From positions 19,409 through 83,408 of the IMG/VR virus record IMGVR_UViG_3300020183_004379: a stretch of 64,000 bases of DNA; one strand, written 5' to 3'. The stretch's first letter is position 1, and each line of letters begins with the position of its first letter. The notes under the pieces were generated by a model, which was not told the DNA's origin, did not search any database, and saw nothing but the letters and a program-made list of their open reading frames with translations. The stretch comes from a virus. Positions 46,810 to 60,523 of the stretch are shown here, piece by piece. The translations under genes were made by a program, and so were the position numbers.

Positions 46810-46817
46810 TATTTATT
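46810..46817 (-). promoter_or_regulatory. T4-type late promoter-like box
   Basis: AATAAATA on the minus strand followed by C, 25 bases upstream of the ATG at 46785, with GGAG between. Confidence 0.55.
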
Positions 46818-47538
46818 GTGTTTTAGAGCTTATTCTAAATTCTTCTAGTCGACCAACCATATTGGCATCTATCATGCTAAACATAGTGGTTATTTGTTTA
46901 TCTTTGACATAAATGTAACCTCCCCAAATCCAGCCACCTCTTTCCAATTGTTCCCAAAGACTTCGAGGAACCTTAACTTCGTCGCCTAGTTGTAACAGAT
47001 AATTTTTTAAGTTTGTTTTTGAATCTATATTATATCGCCCGTCACGGATAATAAGTCTATAGGGCCAATCAATCTTTTTCTTTTTAAGCACAAATCCTTG
47101 TTTCAATAGGTCTGCGTTCTGTTGGTTTTCTGGACACATTACACTTACAAAGTGACTGTTGTCAGTGTGTCTCAGCTTCAGAGAAAGATCTTTTAATGTT
47201 GTAACGTCACTGCTGTAGAATTGAATATGAGGATCTTCAATTCTAACTTTTAAGTTTCCGAGGCGGCTGGTATCTTCTGCGTAGACTATATTCTTAATAA
47301 GTTTCAACAGGTGAACATCCTCATCAGTCAACTGTCTTGTTTGCCGCCAACTGCCTCCGTAACTGTAGGCTCGTTGATTGTAATGGGTGATTTCATAATC
47401 CAATTTTGCTGGGTCACGCAATAATCTACTGCCAAAGCTCAACATGCTCAAACGGTACATGTACTGACCGTGAAGCAGTTTCTTGGTAACCAAAATTTGG
47501 ATACTAGGATTTAATGCCGTCCAGAACGATGTATCCAT
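46813..47538 (-). CDS. Hypothetical phage protein
   Basis: 241 residues, soluble, beta/alpha, with a Trp/Gly-rich WIWGGYIYVKDKQ near the end. No family recognised. It overlaps the ClpA gene by 35 bases. Its 3' end overlaps the promoter of the next small gene. Confidence 0.68.
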   Translation of the reverse strand: MDTSFWTALNPSIQILVTKKLLHGQYMYRLSMLSFGSRLLRDPAKLDYEITHYNQRAYSYGGSWRQTRQLTDEDVHLLKLIKNIVYAEDTSRLGNLKVRIEDPHIQFYSSDVTTLKDLSLKLRHTDNSHFVSVMCPENQQNADLLKQGFVLKKKKIDWPYRLIIRDGRYNIDSKTNLKNYLLQLGDEVKVPRSLWEQLERGGWIWGGYIYVKDKQITTMFSMIDANMVGRLEEFRISSKTQ

Positions 47539-49804
47539 TGCTGTCTATTGAAGGAATTACTGCCAAATTGGTTGTGGTGATATCAAATTCTAACTTGTCG
47601 TTACGATAGTCTACTGAAACTGTGTTGTTTGCCCCTAAACGATCAAAAAGAATTTTACGGCTCAGCGGAACTTTTACTAGATCATTAATTTTACGACTCA
47701 ACGGACGAGCACCCATCTTAGGATCAAACCCTTGGTCGATAATATGTTCAACCGCCGACTCTGATAATTTTACCCTAATGCCCTTGTCAATCAGCAACTC
47801 GTTCATTTCATTAATGAACTTGTTCACAATAAGGCGCATACTGCTCTTTTCTAATTTGTTAAACTTGCATATTGCGTCTAGTCTATTTCTAAACTCTGGT
47901 CTAAAATAATTTTTTACTGCCTTATCATCTTCGTCAGTTTTTTGTAAATCTCTGCCAAAGCCAATATTGTTTCTTTCGCTGTCTGCTGCACCAAGATTAC
48001 TGGTCATTATCACAATACAGTTACGGCAATCTGCTTTCTTGCCATTGCTGCTAGTAACAATGCCTTCATCCATGACAGTGAGCATGATGTTGCTAACATC
48101 AGGGTGAGCCTTTTCAATTTCGTCAAAAAGAATAATAGCATTAGGATTCTTTTCAATGTCACTAATCAACAAGCCGCCGCCCAGGTTACTGTCATCGTAT
48201 CCAACATAACCAGGTGGTGCGCCAATTAGCTTGGCTACACTGTGCTTTTCTTGATACTCACTCATGTCATAGCGTAACAATTTCATGCCTAAGAACTCAG
48301 CTAGCAATTTGGCAAGTTCAGTCTTACCAGTACCAGTAGGACCAGTAAACAAGAATGTACCAACTGGTTTATTCAATGGCTTTAACCCTGCTCGACTTAC
48401 ATAAATCTTTTCAAGCACCATTTCAACTGCATTATCTTGCCCATACAGTCTGCTCTTTACTTTTGATTCAAGATTTTGAATGTTGCTACTGTCGCTTTCA
48501 GCATCGCTGGTAAGTTGCTCAACTGGAATTTTTGTAAACTTGCTCAAACATTCAATGATGTTTTTTCGATCTACTGTCCAATTTGTTTGATAAATCTTGG
48601 CTTTGGCACAAGCAGTATCAATTAAATCAATTGCCTTGTCAGGCAATTTTTTATCGCTTTGATAACGCACACTCAGATCCACAGCACTTTCAATTGCATC
48701 GTCTGAAATATTGCCGCCGTGAAATTCTTCAAAGTGACCACGCAACCCGCGCAAGATATCTTTGGCCACAGCAGAAGTAGGCTCGTCAACAGTGAGTCTA
48801 TAGAATCGACGCATGAGCGCACGATCTTTTTCAAATGACTGCGTATATTCTTCCCATGTTGTTGACGCAATAACTTTAATGCGCCCTTTGGTCAGAGCTG
48901 GTTTAATCATGTTAGCAAAGTCAACGTTGCTACCTGATCCGGATCCTGCACCACGCATCTGGTGGGCTTCATCAATGAACAAAATTGTTTTGCCACGAAT
49001 ATTCAAAGCCTTGATAACATCTTTGAGTTTTTCTTCAAATTCTCCGCGATACTTACTGCCTGCGAGTAAACTACCAATATCAAGATTGTAAACTGTGTAG
49101 TCTTTTAGATAGTCAGGAACATCGCCCTCAATAATGCGTCGAGCTAGCCCTTCAGCGATAGCGGTCTTGCCAACACCTGCGTCGCCTACCATGAGAATGT
49201 TGCTTTTATTTCGCTTGGCAAGTACATGTGCTATTTCATCAAGCTCATGTTCGCGACCGATTACAGGGTCAATCTTGCCCTTGTCGGCTAACTCGTTGAG
49301 ATCGTCACAGTATTCTTTGAGCACTTCAATTGCTCGCTGCTTTGAGGCATTTTTTCTACTGTTGCCTTCTTTGTAGTTTTCGTTATAGAATTCAATTATC
49401 TTGGCCCGGTCGATGCCGTGTTTAATAATGAAATAAGCAGCATGACTGTTTTGTTCGCCTGTGATACTTAAAAATAAATCCATTACCTGCATGTGGTTAC
49501 GACCACTGAACAGCACCTGTGTGAGACTACGATTGAACACACGCTCTAATGCATGAGTTTTCTTTGGCTGCAGGTCCTCATCGTCGGTTAGATTACCATT
49601 GTCAAATCTACTGTTGAAACTGTCAATATCGCTTAGGATTGCATCAACATCTGTACCAAAGTTTTTAAGAAGGTCACCAAATGGACGATAATTGAGTATA
49701 GCGTACAATAGGTGTTCTAAAGTCACATATTCGTGTTTGTACCTTTTGGCATTATCGCCAGCAGCAGAAATAATTAGTTCAATTTCAGGATTAGCCTGTA
49801 TCAT
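47504..49804 (-). CDS. clpA: ClpA-like AAA+ unfoldase (ATP-dependent Clp subunit)
   Basis: 766 residues, near E. coli ClpA (758). An N-domain (residues 1-140), a first AAA+ module with [14 protein letters not shown] and a second with [15 protein letters not shown] and the GYVGYDD pore-loop segment. [10 protein letters not shown] near residue 620 contains the IGF/IGL tripeptide that docks ClpA onto ClpP, so it could recruit the host protease. No ClpP is in the window. It is directly followed by dnaJ upstream. TATAAATA late promoter precedes it. Confidence 0.93.
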
Positions 49805-49824
49805 GCTTTGCCTTTAGATACAAA

Positions 49825-49832
49825 TATTTATA
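49825..49832 (-). promoter_or_regulatory. T4-type late promoter, perfect TATAAATA
   Basis: Minus strand TATAAATA, 20 bases before the clpA ATG at 49804, with an AAAGG-type site between. Matches the T4 late consensus exactly. It lies over the last residues of dnaJ. Confidence 0.75.
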
Positions 49833-50661
49833 GAACTTGCTTTAATTGTTCAATTAGGTTAGCTGCCTGCGGATTGTTAACAATTGGCACAGTAAGCGAA
49901 ACCTCTACTATTAGATTACCACGACGCATGGTATTGATGTCATATAAACCTTGATTGGGTAGTCTCAGTCTTGCTCCAGGCTTGGTCCCAGCTGGTATAG
50001 AAAGCCTAAACACTTTGTTTTCAATGTTAGGCACATCCATGTCTGTACCGGTCATTGCATCCAAACAGTTTACATTGACTTTGTATATCAGGTCAATACC
50101 TTCTAGCTTAAATCTAGGGTCCTCTCTAACCAAAAAATTTATATATAAATCACCTCTTGGTATAGTGGCAAACATATTGTCACCTAAACCAGCATAACGC
50201 ATTTGGTGACCTGATGCTATACCACGAGGTATCTTTACTTCAACCGTTTGTCTTTCGCCGGTGGTGGTTTGCACACTGATAGTTTTGGTTTGATCATTGA
50301 GAGTGCTTTCTAGCTCTAGTTCAATTTGAATTCTAAGATCTTTATTTTTCCGATGCTGTTGCCGCATGTGGGCAAATGGGTCTGGGCCACCGCCGCCAAA
50401 ACCAAAAGAAGCAAAAATTTCATCAAGAGGATTGCCTTGACCAAAATGGAAATGAAAACCTTGATGTTGCGGTTGCGGATGATCGTACTCGTGGCGTTTT
50501 TGTGGATCGCCTAGGGTAGCATAGGCTTCTTGGATTTTTTGAAATTGGTTTTGATCGCCGCCGCGATCCGGATGATGCTCCATCGCCAGTTTGCGATAAG
50601 CTCTTTTGATATCTTCTTCGGATGCTCTCTTGGGAACACCTAGTACTGAGTAGTAGTCCAT
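49828..50661 (-). CDS. dnaJ: DnaJ-like co-chaperone without zinc fingers
   Basis: 277 residues. The J-domain with HPD ([11 protein letters not shown] near residue 30) leads to a Gly/Phe-rich segment ([15 protein letters not shown]) and then two C-terminal substrate domains; the cysteine-rich zinc-finger region is absent, as in CbpA-type proteins. The HPD motif stimulates DnaK ATPase, and this phage encodes DnaK. The ATG at 50661, not 50667, is chosen because it is spaced 6 bases from the -10 box. Confidence 0.9.
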
Positions 50662-50667
50662 GCGCAT

Positions 50668-50697
50668 ATTTTACATGTTAATATAACCATGTGTCAA
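50668..50697 (-). promoter_or_regulatory. Sigma70-like promoter for dnaJ, predicted leaderless
   Basis: Minus strand: TTGACA (50697-50692), 18-base spacer, TAAAAT (50673-50668). ATGCGC then separates it from the ATG at 50661. Confidence 0.68.
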
Positions 50698-50726
50698 GTG
50701 GAAATCCCTCGTAAGGCGATTTCCAC
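50698..50726. terminator. Perfect inverted repeat abutting the dnaJ promoter
   Basis: GTGGAAATC and GATTTCCAC pair over 9 bases with an 11-base loop. It lies directly upstream of the dnaJ -35 hexamer, after the holin gene stop. No U-tract follows on the minus strand, so a terminator, an operator or a bidirectional hairpin are all possible. Confidence 0.5.
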
Positions 50727-50755
50727 TGACTGTTTATGCAATTACTTATAGGCTT

Positions 50756-57078: not shown

Positions 57079-58089
57079 ATGATAACAATCCAGGAGGTTA
57101 GAGAGGTACATCTAGAGCTTACTACCAATTGTAATGCTAGTTGTCCTCTTTGCCCAAGAAATTTTTTTGGATTCCCGTATAATGCAGGATATCCTATAAC
57201 CGAACTCTCGTTGGCCGATATACAGAAAATATTCAGCCCTGCTTTCATTTCTCAACTGCGCCAGGTCAAGATCAATGGCAACCTGGGCGACTTCATGCTT
57301 GCACATGATGGACTTAAAATAGTTGAATACTTTAGAGCGCAAAATCCCACAAGTCTAATTGATATCAGTACCAATGGCAGTGCAAGGAACACAACCTATT
57401 GGCAACAGTTAGCAGAGTACAAGCCGATAGTGCGATTTGCCCTGGACGGGCTCGAGGACACTCATAGCTTGTATCGCAAGGACACCAATTTTAATACCAT
57501 ACTAAAAAATGCCACTGCTTACATACAAGCAGGCGGCGATGCTGTGTGGAAGATGGTGTTGTTTGATCATAATAAACATCAAGTAGAGCAGGCCATGCAC
57601 ATGAGCAAACAACTGGGATTCGCCGATTTTGAATTGGTAAATCATGGCCGCGACCGTGGGCCAGTTTACAACAGAGAAGGTAACCTGGCTTATGTGATTG
57701 GTAAACCCTATCACGATGTACAGGAGTCCGTGATCACATTCATGGATAACACAAGATATTATAACGGTCGCTATTGGCATTATCGATCAAGATCGCCAGC
57801 CAGCAATCTCAACTGCCAGACCATGAGCAAAAGAAAAACAATCTACATAGCTGCGGATGGGTCTGTTTATCCCTGTTGCTGGACCGGATTCTATCCGCGC
57901 ACCTTTGATTCTGCTCTCATGCAGGGCAATGATCGCATAAAAGAATTGTTAGGAGATTTTAATAACAACGCTCTACAAAGACCGCTGGAAGAGTGCCTGC
58001 AATGGTTTGGACGCATTCAACAAGCATGGAAAGCAGAAACCTATGAACAAGGAAGGCCCTTTGTTTGCGATAGAGCCTGTTCAGTCTAG
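57079..58089 (+). CDS. Radical SAM enzyme with SPASM-like cysteines
   Basis: 336 residues. CNASCPLC near residue 18 is the CX3CX2C cluster-binding motif, and the later cysteines (PCCW near 275, CDRAC near the end) with IAADGSVYPCC suggest a second cluster as in SPASM proteins. The target is unknown; some such enzymes modify peptides or other substrates. Plus strand, 15 bases after phoH, converging with a nucleotidase gene by 9 bases. Confidence 0.88.
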   Translation: MITIQEVREVHLELTTNCNASCPLCPRNFFGFPYNAGYPITELSLADIQKIFSPAFISQLRQVKINGNLGDFMLAHDGLKIVEYFRAQNPTSLIDISTNGSARNTTYWQQLAEYKPIVRFALDGLEDTHSLYRKDTNFNTILKNATAYIQAGGDAVWKMVLFDHNKHQVEQAMHMSKQLGFADFELVNHGRDRGPVYNREGNLAYVIGKPYHDVQESVITFMDNTRYYNGRYWHYRSRSPASNLNCQTMSKRKTIYIAADGSVYPCCWTGFYPRTFDSALMQGNDRIKELLGDFNNNALQRPLEECLQWFGRIQQAWKAETYEQGRPFVCDRACSV

Positions 58090-58597: not shown

Positions 58598-60523
58598 TTA
58601 CTTTCCGTCTTTGACTTCAGCGAATTGTGCATCTACCACAGTTTCATCATTGCCGGCTTTCTTGGCTTTGACTTCTTCGGCATCAGCTGTTTGTTTTTCT
58701 ACTTCGGCCTGGCCTGCCAGATCAAACAAAGGCATGGCCTTGGGCACAAATGCTTGTAACGCTTCGGTAATTTTATCTGGATCAGTTTCTGTTTTCAACA
58801 GTTCTTTGAGATCATGCAAGCCAGTTTTGATTGCTTCGCGTTGTTCATCTTGCAGTTTATCGCCGTGCTCTTTGAGATTCTTTTCCACACCCCAGATTTG
58901 ATGCTCGGCAGCATTCTTGGTTTCTGCAAGTTCTTTGGCCTTGGCATCTGTTTCTGCATTTGCTTCGGCATCCGCAATCATCTTCTGTATTTCTTCTTCA
59001 CTCAAGCCTGAGTTGGCCTTGATTGTGATGTTGTTTTGCTTGCCTGTGTTTTTGTCCTTGGCACTTACCTTGAGAATACCATTGGCATCAATATCAAACG
59101 CCACTTCAATTTGTGGTGTACCGCGTGGTGCCGGTGGAATACCTTCTAGGTTAAACTCGCCAAGTAGCTTGTTATGCTGTGCCATTTCGCGTTCACCTTG
59201 GTATACCTTGATGGTAACAGCTGGTTGATTGTCGTCTGCAGTTGAGAACACTTGTGTCTGTTTGGTTGGAATAGTTGTATTCTTGGTAACTACCTTGGCC
59301 ATGATTCCACCTTGTGTTTCAATGCCCAGTGACAGTGGTGTGACATCTAGTAGCAGAACATCCTTCTTGTCTCCCGCCAACACAGCACCTTGAATGGCAG
59401 CACCTGCGGCAACTGCTTCGTCTGGATTCACATCTTTTCTTGGTGCCTTGCTAAAGAAACTTTCTACATAGCCTTGCACCATGGGCATGCGAGTTTGACC
59501 GCCCACAAGGATGATGTCGTCGATGTCGGCAGTAGTAAGTCCTGCATCCTTGAGGGCAGTACGACACGGCTCAATACTGCGCTCCACTAGATCTGTCACA
59601 AGACTTTCAAGTTTGCTACGACTTAGTTTAATAGCCATATGTTTTGGACCACTGGCGTCGGCAGTGATATATGGCAAATTAATCTCAGTTTGCGCACTTG
59701 ACGAAAGTTCAATTTTTGCCTTCTCAGCTGCATCCTTGAGTCGTTGTAGTGCCAAAGTATCCTTGGTAAGGTCTGTGCCTGACTCACGCTTGAATTCGTC
59801 GACCAGAAAGTCCATAATGCGTTGATCAAAGTCTTCGCCGCCTAAAAATGTATCACCATTGGTGGCAAGCACTTCAAACTGTTTGTCACCATCAATGTTG
59901 GCAATTTCGATGATTGAAATATCAAAGGTACCACCGCCTAGGTCGTACACAGCAATCTTGGCGTCTTTCTTTGTGGCCTTGTCCATGCCATAGGCCAAAG
60001 CAGCCGCAGTGGGCTCATTTATAATGCGCTTGACATCTAGGCCTGCAATCTTACCTGCATCCTTGGTTGCTTGACGCTGGCTGTCATTAAAGTAGGCCGG
60101 CACCGTGATAACAGCTTCTGTGACTTCGTGACCAAGATAGGCTTCTGCTGTTTGCTTCATCTTGCGCAGGACTTCAGCAGAAATTTGCGGTGGTGCTAGA
60201 TCTTCGTTGTTCGCATTGATCCATGCATCGCCATTCTTGGCTTCAACAATTTTGAAAGGCATCATATCGATGTCTTTTTGCACAGCCTCTTCTTTGAATT
60301 TACGACCAATCAGGCGCTTCGCAGCGTAGATGGTGTTTTTTGAATTTGTTACTGCCTGGCGCTTGGCACTGGCTCCTACCAGCACTTCATCGTTGGCATA
60401 GGCAACAATGCTAGGCGTAGTACGAGCGCCTTCTGAGTTTTCGATTACTTTGGGTTTGTCGCCTTCCATTACAGCGACGCATGAGTTGGTGGTACCTAGG
60501 TCGATACCTATGATTTTGGCCAT
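58598..60523 (-). CDS. dnaK: Full-length DnaK (Hsp70) chaperone
   Basis: 641 residues, normal bacterial length. [20 protein letters not shown] begins the ATPase domain; [16 protein letters not shown] and [20 protein letters not shown] are conserved; the substrate-binding domain and a C-terminal EVKD-type tail follow (FAEVKDGK). The sequence resembles proteobacterial DnaK. It would help folding in infected cells together with the phage DnaJ at 49.8-50.7 kb. No grpE is seen. Own promoter, GGAG site, leader hairpin and terminator make it an independent transcription unit. Confidence 0.98.

Follow-up and report, generated by a model that had tools for sequence, protein, structure and literature searches.

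The 64,000-nucleotide stretch of phage DNA analyzed here (the window; bases 19409–83408 of an 83,408-base IMG/VR record, that is, of a partial genome) carries a gene for a ClpA-type unfoldase directly downstream of a gene for a J-protein. In our judgement this locus probably specifies the unfoldase component of a ClpS–ClpAP protease owned by the phage, along with a dedicated J-protein, because ClpP and ClpS co-occur with ClpA in its relatives, the catalytic triad is intact in the phage ClpP, and the prohead protease is a separate protein.

Scanning IMG/VR with ClpA yielded 475 matches, of which 80 were fetched. Nineteen records constitute the long relatives, seven of them at least 240 kb in length; two genomes, G005 and G006, are nearly identical copies, which makes the number of independent records lower than the counts given below. 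The database set comprised 12 ClpA-bearing jumbo phage records: Atu_ph07, Phosso, PA5oct, RaK2, GAP32, SCTP-2, Vibrio 2.275, XaC1, CBB, pEa_SNUABM_47, Hallingskeid, and LR756501. The nearest record, G001 (168 kb), has a ClpA 96% identical to that of the window, and the two are colinear over their shared stretch with a DNA identity of 85%–93%.

Architecture of the phage ClpA

The clpA gene (47504–49804, minus strand) is intact and encodes, from an ATG start, a protein of 766 residues that matches the Pfam domains Clp_N, AAA, AAA_lid_9, AAA_2, and ClpB_D2-small. An N-domain (residues ~1–145) is followed by two AAA+ modules, D1 (~160–435) and D2 (~436–740), the layout of a class I Clp/Hsp100 unfoldase. 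Both Walker A motifs (at 207 and 488), both Walker B motifs, and both pore loops (249 and 528) are intact, and the motifs are kept in 72 aligned relatives. The alignment of the protein with E. coli ClpA covers the full length, and the IGL tripeptide of the latter lies opposite the phage IGF near residue 614; in 76 of the 81 clade sequences that were aligned or inspected, this ClpP-docking loop reads IGF. Recoding of the internal stops in the clpA genes of nine relatives was considered and ruled out, TAA being the true C-terminal end.

Among full-length NCBIfam models, the ClpA model TIGR02639 matched the window protein best (831 bits, against 671 bits for ClpB), though this score falls under the curated cut-off of 993 bits. 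On that score we class it as a divergent ClpA-type phage unfoldase of phrog_4871 rather than an equivalog of the bacterial protein. A maximum-likelihood tree was built from 26 phage and 17 bacterial ClpAs; the split between the two groups is fully supported and the branches are long and deep, which marks clpA, as far as the phylogeny reaches, as an old phage gene rather than a recent capture from the bacteria sampled. The same tree bears on the reading that these are recently captured host chaperone genes, carried as cargo without a selected phage role. DnaK, which resembles one betaproteobacterial-type acquisition in a sub-clade, would fit such a history, but the phage ClpAs stand apart from all the sampled bacterial ones; moreover, their catalytic motifs and gene order are retained across relatives of 62%–96% ClpA identity, and because of this conservation we find the cargo reading scarcely credible.

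The J-protein and its pairing with clpA

The dnaJ/cbpA-like gene (49828–50667, minus strand) encodes 279 residues if counted from the first ATG at 50667. The second ATG at 50661, where the first-pass annotation had placed the end of the locus, is the probable true start, as favored by the promoter spacing described below. The protein possesses a J domain with the HPD motif and a DnaJ_C domain, and the zinc finger of CxxCxGxG repeats is found in 0 of 78 DnaJ sequences; by this domain content it is a CbpA-like class B J-protein rather than a classical (class A) DnaJ.

On the minus strand, dnaJ is separated from clpA by a gap of 23 nt. It lies directly before clpA in all 78 fetched loci that have sequence upstream of clpA, and the two genes are also adjacent in Atu_ph07 and PA5oct. 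This recurrence of order and spacing means that the pairing is not a matter of chance. The first-pass description of a ClpA with two AAA+ modules and an IGF loop beside an HPD-bearing DnaJ is thus borne out by domains, motifs, and conserved adjacency.

ClpP in the relatives

The window ClpA had been taken to lack its own ClpP and, possibly, to hijack that of the host. No ClpP match is indeed found in the window's own 83-kb record. However, this record ends at about 24 kb on the G001 scale, and G001 encodes, on one contig, DnaK at 18.4–20.1 kb, ClpP at 98.5 kb, and ClpS at 118.3 kb; the absence of ClpP and ClpS from the record therefore says little. Given the synteny with G001, the clpP and clpS genes of the window phage would sit past the end of the record, and from its relatives we infer that it possesses both. 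ClpP (PF00574) is present in 10 of the 19 long relatives, including G001 and all seven records of at least 240 kb, and the nine without it are shorter. It is also present in 11 of the 12 database jumbo phages. The exception, LR756501, has neither a ClpP match nor an IGF-like tripeptide at the loop position, a link between the two losses that consists of one genome.

In the hijacking reading, host ClpP would be the docking partner of phage ClpA, either solely or next to phage ClpP, and host proteolysis would be redirected. The IGF loop agrees with the host-type motif, the record itself is devoid of ClpP, and the ClpA of one species often functions with the ClpP of another. Nevertheless, a ClpP of its own is carried by each close relative of sufficient length, and LR756501, which has no ClpP match, has not kept an IGF loop for host ClpP but lost it. 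We thus do not favor hijacking and hold it unlikely. A ClpP gene in the same phage genome, the observation that the first-pass annotation had set against its own reading, is found in each of these close relatives, if not directly in the window record; the case shows how a truncated contig can mislead.

The ClpP proteins of G001–G012 comprise 196–207 residues and align over their full length with E. coli ClpP. They retain the triad Ser97, His122, and Asp171 and most positions of the hydrophobic pocket that receives the IGF loop; Tyr60 is replaced by Leu or Met. The phage ClpA and ClpP are presumed to form a complex.

Some database annotations name the ClpP a head maturation protease, and were it a prohead protease only, it would be uninformative on ClpA. 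However, true ClpP models give these proteins 282–296 bits and the head-maturation ClpP-like model gives 100 bits, a T4-type S77 prohead protease is encoded separately in 10 of 13 genomes, and the neighbors of clpP are a SprT-like gene, lipoprotein genes, and 5′-nucleotidase-like genes. A role confined to the prohead is thus very improbable. The clpP gene is not beside clpA; rather, clpA, clpP, and clpS are far apart.

In nearly all ten clpP neighborhoods (L090–L099), the SprT-like metallopeptidase gene is next to or near clpP; two of these genes were scored by Pfam and the rest recognized by a similar N-terminal sequence. The same ten neighborhoods (from G001–G007 and G010–G012) hold two versions of ClpP, in which the N-terminal half is near-identical and the C-terminal half, containing the handle region, is swapped in G004, G005, G006, and G010. 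The handle is 10 residues longer in these four. The exchange looks like recombination within the gene or its replacement.

ClpS and the N-degron pathway

ClpS was found in all 14 genomes searched. The residues Asn34, Asp35, and His66 of the N-degron pocket and the ClpA-facing Glu79 and Lys84 are kept in G001–G007, G010, Phosso, and PA5oct, and the window ClpA keeps Glu23, Glu28, and Arg86; the roles of these ClpS and ClpA residues are presumed ones. Met62 of ClpS is replaced by Thr in the close clade. No Aat transferase was found in the 14 genomes, so that substrates would have to come from N-degrons that are native or generated by the host.

The ClpS-like proteins of RaK2 and GAP32 (L221 and L222) have lost several of the pocket and ClpA-facing residues, leaving a degenerate N-degron pocket, and bear a C-terminal extension, while Glu23 of the corresponding ClpAs is changed to Thr. 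These changes possibly reflect co-evolution toward another adaptor role. The clpS genes of the clade (L210–L217) are preceded by a TATAAT-type promoter and then by a strong 5′-leader hairpin just before the start codon, the arms of which differ in sequence.

In the Sinorhizobium phage Phosso, a peptide deformylase gene (L103, 5433–5951) is inserted between dnaJ and clpA, and in G001 such a gene is found elsewhere in the genome. Peptide deformylase could affect the N-termini presented to ClpS; as a general partner it is limited to 2 of 14 genomes.

A host-type promoter at the start of dnaJ

Directly upstream of dnaJ lies a sigma70-type promoter of the dnaJ–clpA unit (50668–50697, minus strand), consisting of TTGACA (50697–50692), an 18-nt spacer, and TAAAAT (50673–50668). 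The −10 box ends 6 nt before the ATG at 50661. Sigma70-type promoters with at least 10 of the 12 consensus bases are found at this position in 57 of 67 loci, compared to about 5% of random stretches, and the 6-nt spacing is exact in 35 of these 57; the counts come from related loci and are not independent. Across the 80 loci there are 57 near-perfect promoters, 36 at dnaJ and 21 elsewhere, and a start codon follows at 5–9 nt in 32 of the former against only 1 of the latter. With such a spacing, transcription is predicted to begin on or beside the dnaJ ATG and to yield a leaderless mRNA, which in the window points to ATG 50661. Strong promoters of the host sigma70 type suggest that the unit need not await phage late transcription to be expressed, the timing being read from the promoter class.

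A T4-late promoter before dnaJ was considered and rejected, given that the motif TATAAATA is about as frequent in the window as expected by chance and appears in 3 of 75 upstream regions. Immediately upstream of the −35 box, an inverted repeat (TGGAAAT...ATTTCCA; 50699–50729, minus strand) was read by eye, and its arms, likewise by eye, co-vary in L004, L005, L007, and L008; it may serve the upstream gene as a terminator or operator. In L015, L018, L019, L023, and L039 the −35 box lies inside the loop of a terminator-like hairpin, an arrangement akin to the promoter/stem-loop cassettes reported in T4-type phages.

DnaK is an accessory gene

The first-pass annotation had further joined ClpA and DnaJ with DnaK in one proteostasis set. 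A full-length DnaK (HSP70; 641 residues; 58598–60523, minus strand) is indeed encoded about 9 kb from the dnaJ–clpA pair, and to that extent the proposal stands. For the clade it is weak, as HSP70 is restricted to a sub-clade and found in only 2 of the 19 long relatives, compared to 19 of 19 for the J domain, and GrpE of phage origin was found in 0 of 14 genomes. The DnaKs of the phages group in a single clade apart from the bacterial DnaKs sampled, and their best cellular matches are betaproteobacterial, with an identity of 72% at most. The gene looks like an optional, single acquisition from a betaproteobacterial-type source; this affinity suggests, without proving, a betaproteobacterial host for the window phage. 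By gene content, most phages of the clade must rely on host DnaK.

These observations bear on a further explanation, in which ClpA, DnaJ, and DnaK act as an assembly chaperone or disaggregase, by which virion proteins would be refolded or remodeled but not degraded. The middle domain of ClpB couples ClpB to DnaK. This domain is absent from the phage ClpAs, in which the D1-to-D2 distance is 87–95 residues versus 91 in E. coli ClpA; the phage set thus lacks both the middle domain and the GrpE of a ClpB/DnaK disaggregase. In favor of this explanation, the neighbor of clpA is dnaJ and not clpP, the flanking genes in PA5oct are virion structural genes, and virion assembly or aggregate clearance has been proposed earlier (PMC6102473, PMC7824862). 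However, the IGF loop, ClpP, and ClpS are all retained, and the promoter of dnaJ is of the host type rather than the T4-late motif. We consider a purely chaperone-like function improbable, and about as improbable as hijacking.

A putative model and its known counterparts

Under the preferred reading of a phage-owned ClpS–ClpAP protease, we propose a putative working model. ClpA hexamers would dock via their IGF loops on a 14-mer of phage ClpP, the gene of which lies elsewhere in the genome, outside the sequenced fragment. Phage ClpS would bring substrates to the N-domain of ClpA. DnaJ, translated from the same transcript, might recruit host DnaK, or phage DnaK in the sub-clade, and keep the substrates soluble or unfolded. 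Expression that does not depend on late transcription would fit a role in reshaping the proteome of the host or of the infected cell better than one in head maturation.

The E. coli ClpA–ClpP–ClpS N-degron protease shares with the phage set the domain layout, the IGL/IGF loop, the ClpP triad, and the ClpS contact residues. It differs in that the phages have no Aat transferase match, Met62 of ClpS is Thr in the close clade, and the phage dnaJ is in a predicted transcription unit with clpA.

Among phages, Agrobacterium phage Atu_ph07 similarly has adjacent ClpA (gp292) and DnaJ (gp293), with ClpP (gp676) and ClpS (gp708) elsewhere (PMC6102473), but its ClpA is ~43% identical, no gene X (see below) adjoins its clpA, and the pocket of its ClpS is partly changed. 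The published account lists ClpA, DnaJ, ClpP, and ClpS, names ClpX and ClpB as well, and proposes roles in virion assembly, in the control of replication, or in clearing aggregates (PMC6102473). The PA5oct-like phages (Arenbergviridae; PA5oct, MIJ3, Paride, and others) have the same order of PhoH, virion proteins, DnaJ, and ClpA, with ClpP and ClpS elsewhere; in these, however, ClpA is 41% identical and tail and structural genes directly follow clpA. The RaK2/GAP32-type jumbo phages encode a ClpA of the same family (phrog_4871, 'ATP-dependent protease') together with ClpP and ClpS-like genes, but without an adjacent DnaJ and with the altered ClpS-like pocket and ClpA Glu23 described above.

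A comparative overview treated such genes as scattered: some jumbo phages have ClpP and others ClpS, which would act as an adaptor to host ClpAP, and ClpA may serve as an assembly chaperone (PMC7824862); a 2026 review leaves Clp unmentioned (PMC13282480). The kinds of genes have thus already been reported, in Atu_ph07; what is new is the co-conservation of ClpA, ClpP, and ClpS, the dnaJ–clpA–X unit, and its promoter, for which we found no earlier statement in these sources (PMC6102473, PMC7824862, PMC13282480). Since ClpA, ClpP, and ClpS occur together in the tested ClpA-bearing jumbo phages, and clpA frequently has a J-protein gene as its neighbor, it seems that these phages supply the whole degradation machine and not an adaptor to that of the host. 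Isolated phages such as PA5oct make clean experiments on the Clp set possible.

Gene X, a conserved companion of clpA

Gene X (46813–47538, minus strand; 241 residues) overlaps the 3′ end of clpA by 35 nt. It is present in a single copy in 77 loci and the window, and the overlap with the end of clpA is usual. Its AlphaFold model is confident (mean pLDDT of 91.8). No fold match was found in the PDB at E ≤ 0.001, nor did Pfam, PHROGs, or tblastn against phages assign a function, the matches being uncharacterised viral proteins only. From its position, one may guess that gene X encodes an adaptor. A bolder version of the model would then involve phage-private targeting: a leaderless dnaJ–clpA–X transcript from an unusually strong host-type promoter would deliver J-protein, unfoldase, and the new adaptor X, and, with a ClpS of altered pocket (M62T), chosen host proteins would be fed to the phage-owned ClpAP early in infection. 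We regard this version as unlikely.

Elsewhere in the window, a radical-SAM/SPASM-like protein is encoded at 57079–58089 on the plus strand; the gene adjoins that of PhoH and is present in few relatives.
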